Assembly (NCBI RefSeq): GCF_019264485.1
Contig: NZ_JAHVAA010000014.1
Span: 62,001-126,000, forward strand
From: Sediminibacterium sp.
GTDB taxonomy: Bacteria; Bacteroidota; Bacteroidia; Chitinophagales; Chitinophagaceae
Direction: 5' to 3'
DNA length: 64,000 nt
Of this stretch, positions 28,794 to 63,265 are shown piece by piece. How positions within the stretch are numbered: position 1 is the stretch's first letter; each line of letters starts with the position of its first letter. The notes under the pieces were generated by a model. That model made no database searches and had not been told where the DNA came from. It saw only the letters and a list, made by a program, of their open reading frames with translations. Position numbers and translations under genes: made by a program.

Positions 28794-29276
28794 TTATTTA
28801 TTCAATTTCACAGGTCGCGAAAGATGAGAAAAGGTGAGTGATCCCATTTTCCATTTTCCGTTTTCTTTAATGTACACTTCTGTTACCATAAAAGCATTGA
28901 CAACCTCATTTCCACCAACCGCTGCCACCAGGTCAATATCGTTTAACAGGATTGCAGTATTTCCGAAGAAATTCACAGAGGCGCTGTAGACCTCAGCTTT
29001 CTTATACCATATTCTACCGGCTTTGATCGTGCTCAATTCTTGTGTTTTACCCCAACTACCTCCCATATGGACGAAGACGGATTTTTCTCCAAACAACTCA
29101 TTTAACGCATCCACATTTTTATCTGCCATCCAAGCCCATTTATTTTTGGAAAGGTCGAGTATTTCCTGCTCCTCCTTTGAAACATCGGTCGCGGAAGAAG
29201 TAGGCAGCTTTGCCTGTGCATATACTATTTGCCCTGAAGCAAAACAAAAGAACAAAGCGATCATTACTTTTTTCAT
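28794..29276 (-). CDS. Exported NTF2-like (DUF4440) protein
   Basis: 160 residues. Signal peptide 1-21 (SGQIVYAQ) then one NTF2-like cone domain (EEQEILDLSKNKWAWMADKNVDALNELF, VFVHMGGSWGKTQEL, GKWKMGSLTFSHL). The fold serves as a small-molecule pocket or isomerase in other proteins. It stands 74 bases upstream of the cupin gene in the island run. No catalytic residues can be named with confidence. Confidence 0.75.
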   Translation of the reverse strand: MKKVMIALFFCFASGQIVYAQAKLPTSSATDVSKEEQEILDLSKNKWAWMADKNVDALNELFGEKSVFVHMGGSWGKTQELSTIKAGRIWYKKAEVYSASVNFFGNTAILLNDIDLVAAVGGNEVVNAFMVTEVYIKENGKWKMGSLTFSHLSRPVKLNK

Positions 29277-52795: not shown

Positions 52796-54355
52796 TTGAA
52801 AAAATCAGTCCTCTTATTAAGCATCACAAGCGGGTTATTGTTATTTGCCGCATGGCCTGTATCGCCATTACTGCCTTTGATTTTTATTGCATGGATACCT
52901 TTACTGATGGTTGCTGAACGCGCCCGTACCGCTTCTGGTTTTTTTGGCCTTTCCTTTCTTGCATTGCTGATCTGGAATAGTGGCACTACCTGGTGGATGT
53001 GGAACTCAACCGATATAGGTACCATCGCCGCCATTATGTTCAACAGCATGCTGATGACTTTTCCATGGTGGGGTTATTTTCATATAAAAAAGAAAGGAAA
53101 AAATGCAGGTTATATTTCACTTATTGCTTTCTGGATGTGTTTCGAATATATTCATCACAACTGGCAACTCAGCTGGCCATGGCTCACATTGGGTAATGTG
53201 TTTGCATCTTATCCCGACAGCATTCAATGGTATGAATACACAGGTGTACAGGGGGGAACTTTATGGGTGATACTCGTTAATATTTTATTGTATGAATTAT
53301 GGCTGTCGTATCAACAGAAATCCTTCAATAAAAAAATGGCATTGAGTGTATTATTCTTACTGGCTTCTCCTTTACTGATCGCTTATTTATTGAAACCAAC
53401 ACTATCAAAAGAAACGGGCACTGATAATATAGTAATCGTTCAGCCAGATATAGACCCCTACGGTAAATTCAATGCTGGTACAGGCGCAGAACAAATTCAA
53501 TCGCTACTCAACTTAACCAAAGAAGCCATCGACAGTAATACAAAAATGGTTATCTGGCCCGAAACAGCCATGAGTATTGCAGACTGGCAAAGCAATATCG
53601 GTAACAACCTCTATTATCAGGCAGTGTTTGAATTCAGCAGACAAAATCCATCGCTCAGTCTTGTTACCGGTATTGAAACATTTAAAAACTATGGCACAGA
53701 AAAAATAACAGCTACTGCCAGAGAAGCCGGTGACGGCACTTACTATGATGCATTCAATGCTGCAGTACATATTCGTAACGGGCAGGCTCTTTCTTTTTAT
53801 AATAAAAGCAAGCTGGTGCCTGGTGTAGAATCATTACCTACATTTCTCAATTTCCTGGCACCTGTTTTTGAACAGTTTGGTGGTACAACGGGTGGGTATG
53901 GAAGATCTGAATCGGCTGCCACATTTTCAGCAACAGGAAATAACTATATCGCCGCTCCCATTATTTGTTATGAAAGTGTATATGGTGAATATGTTGGAGA
54001 ATATGTTAAGAAAGGGGCGAACATACTCACCATTATGACCAATGATGGATGGTGGGGTAATACACCGGGGCATAAACAACATTTACAATATGCCCGGTTA
54101 AGAGCCATTGAAACAAGAAAGTGGGTAGCCAGAAGTGCGAATACAGGCATATCAGCTGTAATAGATCCAACTGGTTCTATCCGTGACAGTAAACCCTGGC
54201 ATAAAATGAGTACCATTAAATATGCGGTACCGGTGGTAAGCGGAGAAACTTTTTATGTACGATGGGGTGATTATTTATACAAACTGGCATCACTCATCAG
54301 TATTTTATTTATTCTTTGGAAAATAAAAGACCGTTTCACAAACAATAAAAAATGA
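52796..54355 (+). CDS. lnt: Apolipoprotein N-acyltransferase
   Basis: 519 residues from a TTG start (no ATG nearby fits; TTGAAAAAATCA gives the expected basic start before the first membrane helix). Several membrane helices cover about 1-190, and the nitrilase domain holds the triad Glu256 (WPETAMS), Lys337 (YNKSKLVPG) and Cys391 (IICYESVYGE). A last helix lies near the C-terminus. It adds the third acyl chain to lipoproteins, in keeping with the many lipoproteins in this window. The stop overlaps the next start by ATGA. Confidence 0.95.
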   Translation: MKKSVLLLSITSGLLLFAAWPVSPLLPLIFIAWIPLLMVAERARTASGFFGLSFLALLIWNSGTTWWMWNSTDIGTIAAIMFNSMLMTFPWWGYFHIKKKGKNAGYISLIAFWMCFEYIHHNWQLSWPWLTLGNVFASYPDSIQWYEYTGVQGGTLWVILVNILLYELWLSYQQKSFNKKMALSVLFLLASPLLIAYLLKPTLSKETGTDNIVIVQPDIDPYGKFNAGTGAEQIQSLLNLTKEAIDSNTKMVIWPETAMSIADWQSNIGNNLYYQAVFEFSRQNPSLSLVTGIETFKNYGTEKITATAREAGDGTYYDAFNAAVHIRNGQALSFYNKSKLVPGVESLPTFLNFLAPVFEQFGGTTGGYGRSESAATFSATGNNYIAAPIICYESVYGEYVGEYVKKGANILTIMTNDGWWGNTPGHKQHLQYARLRAIETRKWVARSANTGISAVIDPTGSIRDSKPWHKMSTIKYAVPVVSGETFYVRWGDYLYKLASLISILFILWKIKDRFTNNKK

Positions 54356-55239
54356 TTCAGAAAAGCTGCAACTGGTCTGGTGGTACACTGCATTATAAAA
54401 TATATGGTGAAGGCCAGCCCCTGGTTTTATTACATGGCTTTGGCGAAGACAGTAGTATCTGGAACAGGCAGGTTGCCCTTTTACAGCATCATTGCCAATT
54501 AATTATTCCTGATTTACCCGGAACGGGGAACTCATTGTGGTCAATAGTGAAAGGTGAATGGTTAATGCCCAAAGGACTCCGGTTGGAGGCGAATGAAGAG
54601 CAGCAAACCAATTCACGCCTCACGTCTCACGTTTCACCTGTCACGCCTTCTATTGATGATCTCGCCGACTCCATTTACCACTTACTAATACAAGAAAACA
54701 TTTCTTCCTGCTATCTACTCGGTCATAGTATGGGGGGATATATTACACTGGCATTTGCAGAAAAATATCCCAGATTGCTCAGAGGTTTCGGGTTGATTCA
54801 TTCTACTGCATTTGCAGACAGTGAGGAGAAGAAAAAAAACCGCATGAGAGGTATTGAACTCATGGAACAATATGGTGGATATTCATTTCTCAAAACAACC
54901 ATTCCCAACCTTTTCGGTGAAGCATTCAAAAAAAATAATCCTGAAGCTGTTGAACAATTGATTAAACAGGCCGCCGGTTTGTCTACCCCATCATTACAGG
55001 CTTACTATTATGCCATGATGAACCGCCCCGACAGAACAGAGGTATTAAAAAGCAACCCCTTGCCTGTTTTATTCGTTATGGGTACTGAAGATGTAGCAGC
55101 ACCATTGAATGATGTATTACAGCAAACGCATCTTCCATTAATATCGTATATTCATATACTGGACGGTGTAGGACATATGGGCATGTGGGAATCAACTGAA
55201 AGGCTCAATGAATTACTTATTTCATTTATTCATCAATAG
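54352..55239 (+). CDS. Alpha/beta hydrolase with an in-frame repeat insertion
   Basis: 295 residues, overlapping lnt by four bases. Fold marks: LVLLHGFGEDSSIW, the nucleophile GHSMGG (Ser126), GTEDVA (acid) and GVGHMGMWE (His). Between the conserved PDLPGTGNS and SIDDLADSIYHLL lies an unusual stretch at about residues 62-99 encoded by heptamer words (three GTGAATG-like units at 54547-54567 and five TCACGYY units at 54613-54647). The insert is in frame and free of stops, so the enzyme may tolerate it as a loop. Substrate unknown. Confidence 0.9.
   Translation: MIQKSCNWSGGTLHYKIYGEGQPLVLLHGFGEDSSIWNRQVALLQHHCQLIIPDLPGTGNSLWSIVKGEWLMPKGLRLEANEEQQTNSRLTSHVSPVTPSIDDLADSIYHLLIQENISSCYLLGHSMGGYITLAFAEKYPRLLRGFGLIHSTAFADSEEKKKNRMRGIELMEQYGGYSFLKTTIPNLFGEAFKKNNPEAVEQLIKQAAGLSTPSLQAYYYAMMNRPDRTEVLKSNPLPVLFVMGTEDVAAPLNDVLQQTHLPLISYIHILDGVGHMGMWESTERLNELLISFIHQ
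54547..54647. repeat. Inverted heptamer-word element inside the hydrolase gene
   Basis: GTGAAAG, GTGAATG and GTTAATG at 54547-54567; TCACGCC, TCACGTC, TCACGTT, TCACCTG and TCACGCC at 54613-54647. The two halves are partly complementary (AGGTGAA at 54552-54558 with TTCACCT at 54631-54637). Same build as the intergenic arrays but within codons. Confidence 0.75.
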
Positions 55240-62096: not shown

Positions 62097-62223
62097 ATAA
62101 TTTGGAAATTTGGAGATGACAGGAGTATGAACTTAGCTCTAAATATAGGCATATGAAGATATAATAAATAGTCTCTTATTAAAACGAATTTCCAAATTTC
62201 CAAATTTCCAAATTTCCAAATTC
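62096..62223. repeat. Octamer-word arrays (CCAAATTT family) in inverted pair
   Basis: A short TTTGGAAATTTGGA run at 62101-62114 faces four CCAAATTT units at 62188-62222. The second array includes the stop codon and final codons of the convergent nitronate monooxygenase-like gene. Confidence 0.75.
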
Positions 62224-63123: not shown

Positions 63124-63265
63124 TTAATTTGGAAATTTGTGAATTTGGAAATTTGGAAATGGAGGCATCTGCTGATTTTTAACCTACAAATTAGACAATT
63201 TTATTTTCACCCAGCCATGTTAAAACACTGGCATTTTCAAATTTCCAAATTCTCAAATTCTCAAA
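63124..63265. repeat. Octamer-word arrays flanking the gap before the nucleotidyltransferase
   Basis: GAATTTGG/AAATTTGG units at about 63128-63160 face CAAATTTCC/CAAATTCT units at about 63237-63263, again an inverted pair. The pair fills most of the gap between two minus-strand genes and lies at the start codon of one and the stop codon of the other. Confidence 0.65.

Follow-up and report, generated by a model that had tools for sequence, protein, structure and literature searches.

How repeat DNA comes to lie in frame inside the gene of a conserved enzyme is the question raised by a 64-kb stretch of a Sediminibacterium genome, here denoted the window (G000:C15:62001-126000; the genome, G000, comprises 3.64 Mb in 15 contigs). 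The gene, on the plus strand at 54352..55239, is an ORF of 295 amino acids with a match to PF12697 (7.2e-18). Directly upstream is an apolipoprotein N-acyltransferase gene (52796..54355, plus strand), which overlaps the start of the ORF by 4 bases. The motifs GHSMGGY, GTED and GHMGMWE are all found in the protein, and the profile, the catalytic motifs and a confident structure model place it in the alpha/beta hydrolase family.

Alignment and motif position locate the conserved PDLPGTGNS at 54508..54534, and motif position and the structure model place SIDDLADS, the start of a helix, at 54649..54672. Between them, at 54535..54648, lies a variable loop of 38 residues (LWSIVKGEWLMPKGLRLEANEEQQTNSRLTSHVSPVTP), defined by homologue alignment, periodicity and low pLDDT (all plus strand). 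Its anatomy can be read directly. The left arm (54540..54567, plus strand; 28 bases) consists of the GTGA-type words GTCAATA, GTGAAAG, GTGAATG and GTTAATG, and the right arm (54613..54647, plus strand; 35 bases) of five TCACNNN words in which NNN is GCC, GTC, GTT, CTG and GCC. The left arm runs into a small repeat, GCCCAAAGGACTCC-GGTT-GGAG (54567..54588, plus strand; GCCCAAAGGACTCCGGTTGGAG), which is genome-specific, differs from the heptamers and is translated as (M)PKGLRLE; the following bases, 54589-54612, are neither heptameric nor part of the small repeat. The first-pass annotation had described a 38-residue insert encoded by heptamers of both orientations, in frame and without a stop. 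Orientation, frame and absence of stops are borne out, but the heptameric share is 28 + 35 of 114 bases and only about 21 residues are word-encoded.

Compared with itself at lag 7, the loop DNA has an identity of 0.47 with p=0.0005, the lowest value obtainable from 2000 shuffles; chance periodicity was thereby ruled out. Neither arm was reported by Tandem Repeats Finder or by a direct and inverted repeat finder. Within the window, the hydrolase chain is the only one of at least four TCAC words; GTGA chains of this length were not found. The loop words shift frame at every step. Neither of the left-arm words whose bases 2-4 form a codon is GTGA (they are GTCA and GTTA instead), and GTGA occupies only the two phases in which TGA is no codon. 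The homologues L062 (GTGA, GTGA, GTCA, GTGA) and L061 (GTGA, GTCT) obey the same rule as the window, because an open frame demands it. The TCAC words observed are, by inspection, stop-free in any frame.

In the structure model, built from 36 sequences (mean pLDDT 92.7), residues 61-100 score 77, 56, 52 and 68 by tens, and every other ten 95-99. A strand (49-53) precedes the loop, a helix (101-114) follows it, and the nucleophile strand spans 120-125. The loop is thus a low-confidence, presumably exposed excursion between strand and helix; its earlier placement between a strand and the nucleophile elbow passes over the helix 101-114, which sits between loop and nucleophile strand. The best sequence match among solved structures, 7dq9, has about 7 residues at this site in an alignment read by eye, so the window loop is about 30 residues longer.

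We compared the loop in 78 homologue rows (30 + 48, five proteins occurring twice). Of these, 74 were measurable, L064, L104, L106 and L107 being left out for want of an anchor; 24 rows with loops shorter than 10 residues were excluded from the period test, leaving 50. All seven rows with loops of at least 27 residues, representing six distinct proteins (L071, L031, which is the window, L032 and L065, which are one protein, L061, L062 and L067), had 7 as their best lag (p=0.0005). Among loops of 18-22 residues, one row in 13 showed period 7 (L063, p 0.001-0.002), and among the 50 tested the 12-residue loop of L059 also reached p 0.004. All 19 rows titled Chitinophaga (L081-L096, L098-L100) have 8-residue loops. 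Judged by the hydrolase, Sediminibacterium goheungense (L062; 73% identity in the best segment) is the closest relative with a name; its MnmE is 94% identical to that of the window's genome. The insert had been expected to be unique; the homologue alignment contradicts this, since homologues 80% and 73% identical have heptamer loops at the same place, and other lineages have heptamer loops there with other words. This recurrence with different words is a direct observation: TCAC words are found in the window, L061, L062 and L063, ACTCCNN words in L071 and, by eye, CCCAAAC-like words in L032 and GATGACA-like words in L067.

These comparisons bear on whether the loop was selected as a peptide, the periodicity of its DNA being incidental. 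A VNSQWSMVNERTWVNPHSL-like stretch is kept in the NadR-like loops of several relatives (by eye), as such selection would have it. Different words, however, give different peptides at the same place, and lag 7, no codon multiple, tops all lags in every hydrolase loop of at least 27 residues; we regard peptide selection as very improbable.

The words in a loop may be compared with those of its genome. ACTCCNN triples number 143 in G105, the genome of L071 (control 0), and none in the window's genome or in G100-G103. In G050, ACTCC words are equally common (142), yet the hydrolase loop is short. GATGA triples were counted 4 times in the genome of L067, 4 times in the window's genome (three of them at one place), once in G047 and not at all in the remaining 11 genomes counted, so the word-genome link for the L067 loop is weak. 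Short hydrolase loops also occur in the array-rich genomes G027, G047, G050 and G106. A tree of 65 rows built without the loop, which left out the five duplicate proteins, L054 (broken frame) and L047, L048 and L051 (script anchor), requires at least four changes of loop state, and a single clade of the seven heptamer rows was rejected (p-AU 0.027, from a quick tree).

Folding of the loops was scored as z against dinucleotide shuffles. The hydrolase loops of L062 (-7.9), L071 (-7.3), L061 (-2.8) and L067 (-1.8) are followed by the window (-1.0), L032 (-0.8) and L063 (-0.3), the window's own loop folding barely better than its shuffles. Short loops without period 7 score as well (L035/L108, which are one protein, -3.8/-3.6; L077 -2.4; L068 -2.2). 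The hairpin z was for this reason dropped as a stand-alone proof.

Array-centred stretches showed further in-frame arrays inside MnmE, HemC, a NadR-like ATPase, the editing domain of LeuRS and a YggS-like protein, in keeping with the earlier claim that arrays in genes add peptide loops, both in the hydrolase and in further core genes of this genome. Eleven in-ORF arrays were translated, cases at ORF starts or ends (L125, L128:12995-14080, L132) being set aside; gene names beyond Pfam are our own. In-ORF arrays were also seen in a BNR-repeat protein and in methylmalonyl-CoA mutase.

In 15 genomes, HemC has long period-7 loops in seven (G000, G100, G101, G102, G105, G047 and G050; p 0.0005), with z of -7.0, -6.8, -5.5, -4.2, -3.2, -2.2 and -1.2 among them. 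A short period-7 loop is found in G104, long loops without period 7 in G103 (z -2.2) and G033 (z -2.4), and short, non-significant loops in five genomes. The HemC loop of L178 (from G010, where four TCACNNN words have no match) contains a different palindromic-looking stretch (TCATCCCGAGCGCAGCCGAG...), and the site may take other repeats as well.

LeuRS has period-7 loops of AGCT words in G000, G101 and G102 and of CTCAC words in G047 and G105, with z of -4.6, -3.2, -3.2, -3.1 and -2.0. Seven other genomes have shorter loops; none of the five tested was significant, and those of G103 and G104 are below testable length. Left out were G100 and G033 (L210 and L211, loop unreadable) and G050 (L212, match to a different synthetase). 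A second stretch of about 60 residues (residues ~669-727) where matches to most relatives break was noticed in the LeuRS of L134:12768-15782 (minus strand).

The NadR-like gene was found in 14 of the 15 genomes. Judged by eye, its hairpin looks good in G104 and weaker in several genomes; G010 and G103 have an ordinary-looking stretch, and the site is short in G027, G039 and G035. MnmE, aligned from 14 genomes (G033 had no true match), is nearly constant in length. Before its ISAK motif (L183-L186), CCAT occurs four times, spaced by 7 bases, in G000, G100, G101 and G102; compared by eye with G101 and with G102, G000 differs at all ten non-CCAT bases of this 26-base stretch.

Most arrays lie outside genes. 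In the window's genome, matches to four TCACNNN words number 43 and to three words 93, against 10 and 31 for the reversed pattern, a control that is not neutral, as it catches other word families (in G027; for GATGA also in G101, G103 and G000). TCACGTY words are found at 8 other places in this genome. In a systematic 400-kb sample of it we found 66 period-7 arrays, 1-5 for each of the periods 6 and 8-12, at most 5 for any other period from 5 to 13, and 42 at the harmonic period 14; the 7-base unit is thus over-represented against other unit lengths. By a longest-ORF rule rather than a gene finder, 57 of the 66 fall between called genes and 7 at the ends of genes, none lies well inside one, and 2 were unassigned. 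G101 has 41 arrays (other periods up to 8), of which 28 lie in gaps, 6 at ends, 2 inside genes and 5 unassigned; the two in-gene arrays are doubtful, and each lies close to where an ORF call begins. In G027, long ACTCCTC arrays fit the pattern and the reversed control alike, some of them at contig starts, which suggests that long heptamer tracts are unresolved in that assembly.

An inverted partner, defined as a match of 16 or more out of 20 bases no further than 150 bases away, was found for 42 of 66 arrays in G000, 27 of 41 in G101 and 16 of 32 in G105; with the surroundings of another array as control, these numbers fell to 4/66, 3/41 and 2/32. The pairing of array arms between genes is thus observed to be local and word-matched. 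The arrays have inverted partners and their words vary outside the core, so they are not one word repeated head to tail. Mismatches cluster by word position (in four samples, none of 2000 random placings each attained the observed value), but duplicated variants do likewise, and the fixed core was rejected as a proof of selection.

If the hairpin were kept for a role in mRNA, as a terminator, RNase site or pausing site, the peptide would be a by-product. The gene gaps lean this way: in the systematic samples (G000 and G101 together) arrays are densest in convergent gaps (20 arrays in 9.3 kb), followed by tandem gaps (54 in 51.8 kb), and rarest in divergent ones (11 in 15.5 kb), and in the array-centred sample, which includes the window, divergent gaps are again the poorest (0.7 arrays per kb, against 2.2 in convergent and 2.6 in tandem gaps). 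The local pairing of arms and the CCAT cores of MnmE, kept while ten other bases differ between G000 and G101 or G102, point in the same direction. At the hydrolase site, however, most homologues are without the hairpin and the window copy folds poorly, and a terminator in mid-gene would be harmful. An mRNA role is accordingly improbable in our estimation.

The middle of the loop probably has a different history. Its small repeat takes the form GTCCAAAGGACTCC, three or four bases, then usually GGAG, and matches the core with one mismatch in the loop. The 14-base core, with up to 2 mismatches, has 1 + 8 + 7 = 16 matches in 860 kb of the window's genome, where shuffled cores give means of 0.3, 1.2 and 0.9 (about 2.4 expected in total). 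Samples of G101, G105 and G104 hold 1, 0 and 1 matches (means 1.8, 0.8 and 0.3), that is, 2 in the 791 kb of these three relatives against about 2.9 expected. With up to 1 mismatch, 12 matches lie at 11 places in the 860-kb sample, window included. Altogether the core was seen at 15 other places in the genome, including L288-L291 and L293 (L288-L293 are weak BLAST matches to the middle of the insert, and L292 was already among the 11 places). Within 4 mismatches, the repeat is absent from the other hydrolase, HemC and LeuRS loops compared. A period-7 flank accompanies 3 of the 12 matches, against 111 of 820 random non-coding points, and since it is not regularly heptamer-flanked we take it for a separate repeat. 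The palindromic GTCCAAAGGACTCC-NNN-GGAG recurs at L120, L124, L235, L246, L247, L250 and L288-L293, in several places set into other simple repeats, e.g. AATAAGA, and may be an element of its own.

In two genes the repeat stands in frame beside heptamers: the hydrolase (GEWLMPKGLRLE) and HldD (AMSKGLPSEVHGPWSIG), an ADP-heptose epimerase (TIGR02197) at L294:1085-2104 (minus strand) in the same genome. In HldD it is read as MSKGLPSE and adjoins GGTCCAT heptamers (MSKGLPSEVHGPWS); the solved structure 1eq2, which we take to be HldD of E. coli, shows a gap of 15 residues at this stretch. The hydrolase loops compared are 120 bases long in the window, 99 in L061 and 93 in L062, lengths that would fit a later insertion of about the size of the repeat.

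A repeat in frame in two unrelated genes, at 15 other places and missing with its 15 residues from HldD of E. coli is what one would expect if the hairpins, or hairpin and middle repeat together, were non-autonomous MITE- or RPE-like elements moved whole by a transposase acting in trans. The same kind of hairpin does occur between genes and inside several genes, several genomes show a short loop at the same place, and Rickettsia elements behave in this way (PMC2229807, PMC3767692). On the other hand, BLAST of the insert against its genome gave only pieces of 14-34 bases, with no full-length second copy and no shared ends seen, the middle repeat is not regularly heptamer-flanked, and the words of MnmE differ at constant length. 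A Y1 transposase as driver found no support in 18 genomes, 14 of them with array counts: for this one type of transposase, presence fails to track the arrays. It is missing from the array-rich G027 and G103 and from G104; one copy each was found in G010, a genome devoid of TCAC arrays, and in the window's genome. We consider transposition of whole elements unlikely, though the most serious of the alternatives. The earlier statement that the arrays spread into genes had assumed movement; what recurs elsewhere is the middle repeat, not the insert.

We favour, and hold to be probable, the reading that a hairpin of heptamer words decayed within a permissive loop, which a small genome-specific repeat enlarged at a later time. 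The loop would belong to a class of Chitinophagaceae hairpins, here carried in frame and partly decayed, with two inverted arms of 7-base words (a core of 4-5 bases and 2-3 variable ones) around a short middle. Such hairpins would lie mostly between genes and, in frame, in a few tolerant surface loops (hydrolase, hemC, leuS, nadR-like), where read-through would be possible because TCAC words are stop-free and GTCA, GTTA or GTCT stand where TGA would be a codon. The arrays would grow in place, by 7-base slippage, arm-to-arm copying and exchange of words between arrays, rather than jump whole; growth in place is favoured for the heptamer part because words differ at one place and there is no second full copy, and also because Y1 transposases do not track the arrays and MnmE words changed without length. 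According to PMC4679880, it was Mrazek who proposed to connect 7-base units with polymerase slippage. Growth in place is less likely than insertion for the 22-base middle, because pieces of shared sequence do enter these loops; this second repeat probably came into the middle of the hairpin in the window's lineage after the hairpin itself. Over time, words at one place would be swapped for others or decay to ordinary coding DNA, and the loop peptide is presumably neutral.

By analogy, the hairpins would work like the Rickettsia palindromic elements RPE-4/6/7 (extended RPE-4) while being built from heptamer-array blocks and without a shared full-length sequence. Those palindromic repeats are likewise found between genes and in frame in conserved genes, with orthologues carrying different element groups at one site; in Rickettsia they lie at solvent-exposed sites, and the short motif ATGAC is over-represented (PMC3767692, PMC2229807). 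An in-frame palindromic insert of this kind is present in the hydrolases of L061, L062 and L071, in HemC and in LeuRS, and the window pairs weakly. RPE families, about 100-150 bases long, are recognised by a profile. The present insert as a whole is without a second copy and has no such shared sequence beyond the 14-34 base pieces; its arms consist of period-7 words, which vary from genome to genome, and the 22-base middle alone is observed to be shared, within one genome. Nematomorpha mitochondrial genes also have coding palindromes, inverted repeats in working protein genes as here, but these are long perfect repeats whose arms encode conserved regions (PMC6649704), whereas our words lie in a variable loop.

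The arms also resemble known heptamer arrays. The cyanobacterial STRR sequences are simple-sequence arrays of heptamers. Others are Mrazek's long SSRs, TAACTGA of Beggiatoaceae and GGGAATC of Xanthomonas (PMC4679880, PMC4692102), with an over-represented 7-base unit and a mostly intergenic location as here (PMC4679880). TAACTGA has stops in all frames of one strand, and most in-gene copies run opposite (PMC4679880); at a given gene pair, the arrays of relatives differ in length and sequence, and inverted arrangements are also known (PMC4692102). These reports centre on one word in direct arrays, whereas we find mixed words with a common core, in inverted pairs, also inside conserved protein domains. 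A literature search thin on subscription journals found no description of heptamer hairpins inside Chitinophagaceae genes, which is a weak negative.

Relatives have used different words to rebuild the loops of the hydrolase and of other core enzymes, and repeat DNA may thus be able to remodel working proteins time and again. Arrays usually taken as intergenic noise would then recurrently build new loops of core enzymes. Orthologous series running from a good hairpin through a decayed one to ordinary coding DNA and a short site let the origin of protein segments be followed, and the loops are also a natural setting in which to test how inverted arms and 7-base arrays come about. More speculatively, and with appreciable doubt, the Chitinophagaceae hairpin might be sequence-agnostic and self-propagating: structure and spacing would be inherited while copying from arm to arm and array to array overwrites the words with the genome's vocabulary, small repeats nest inside, and loops of essential enzymes follow the genome's dialect.

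Two further stretches of the window were noticed. At 28841-28871, a weak period-7 stretch in a small ORF (28794-29276, minus strand) looks like chance. At 62187-62222 and 63126-63160 lie period-8 arrays, AATTTCCA and AATTTGGA, each the reverse complement of the other, at a distance of about 900 bases.
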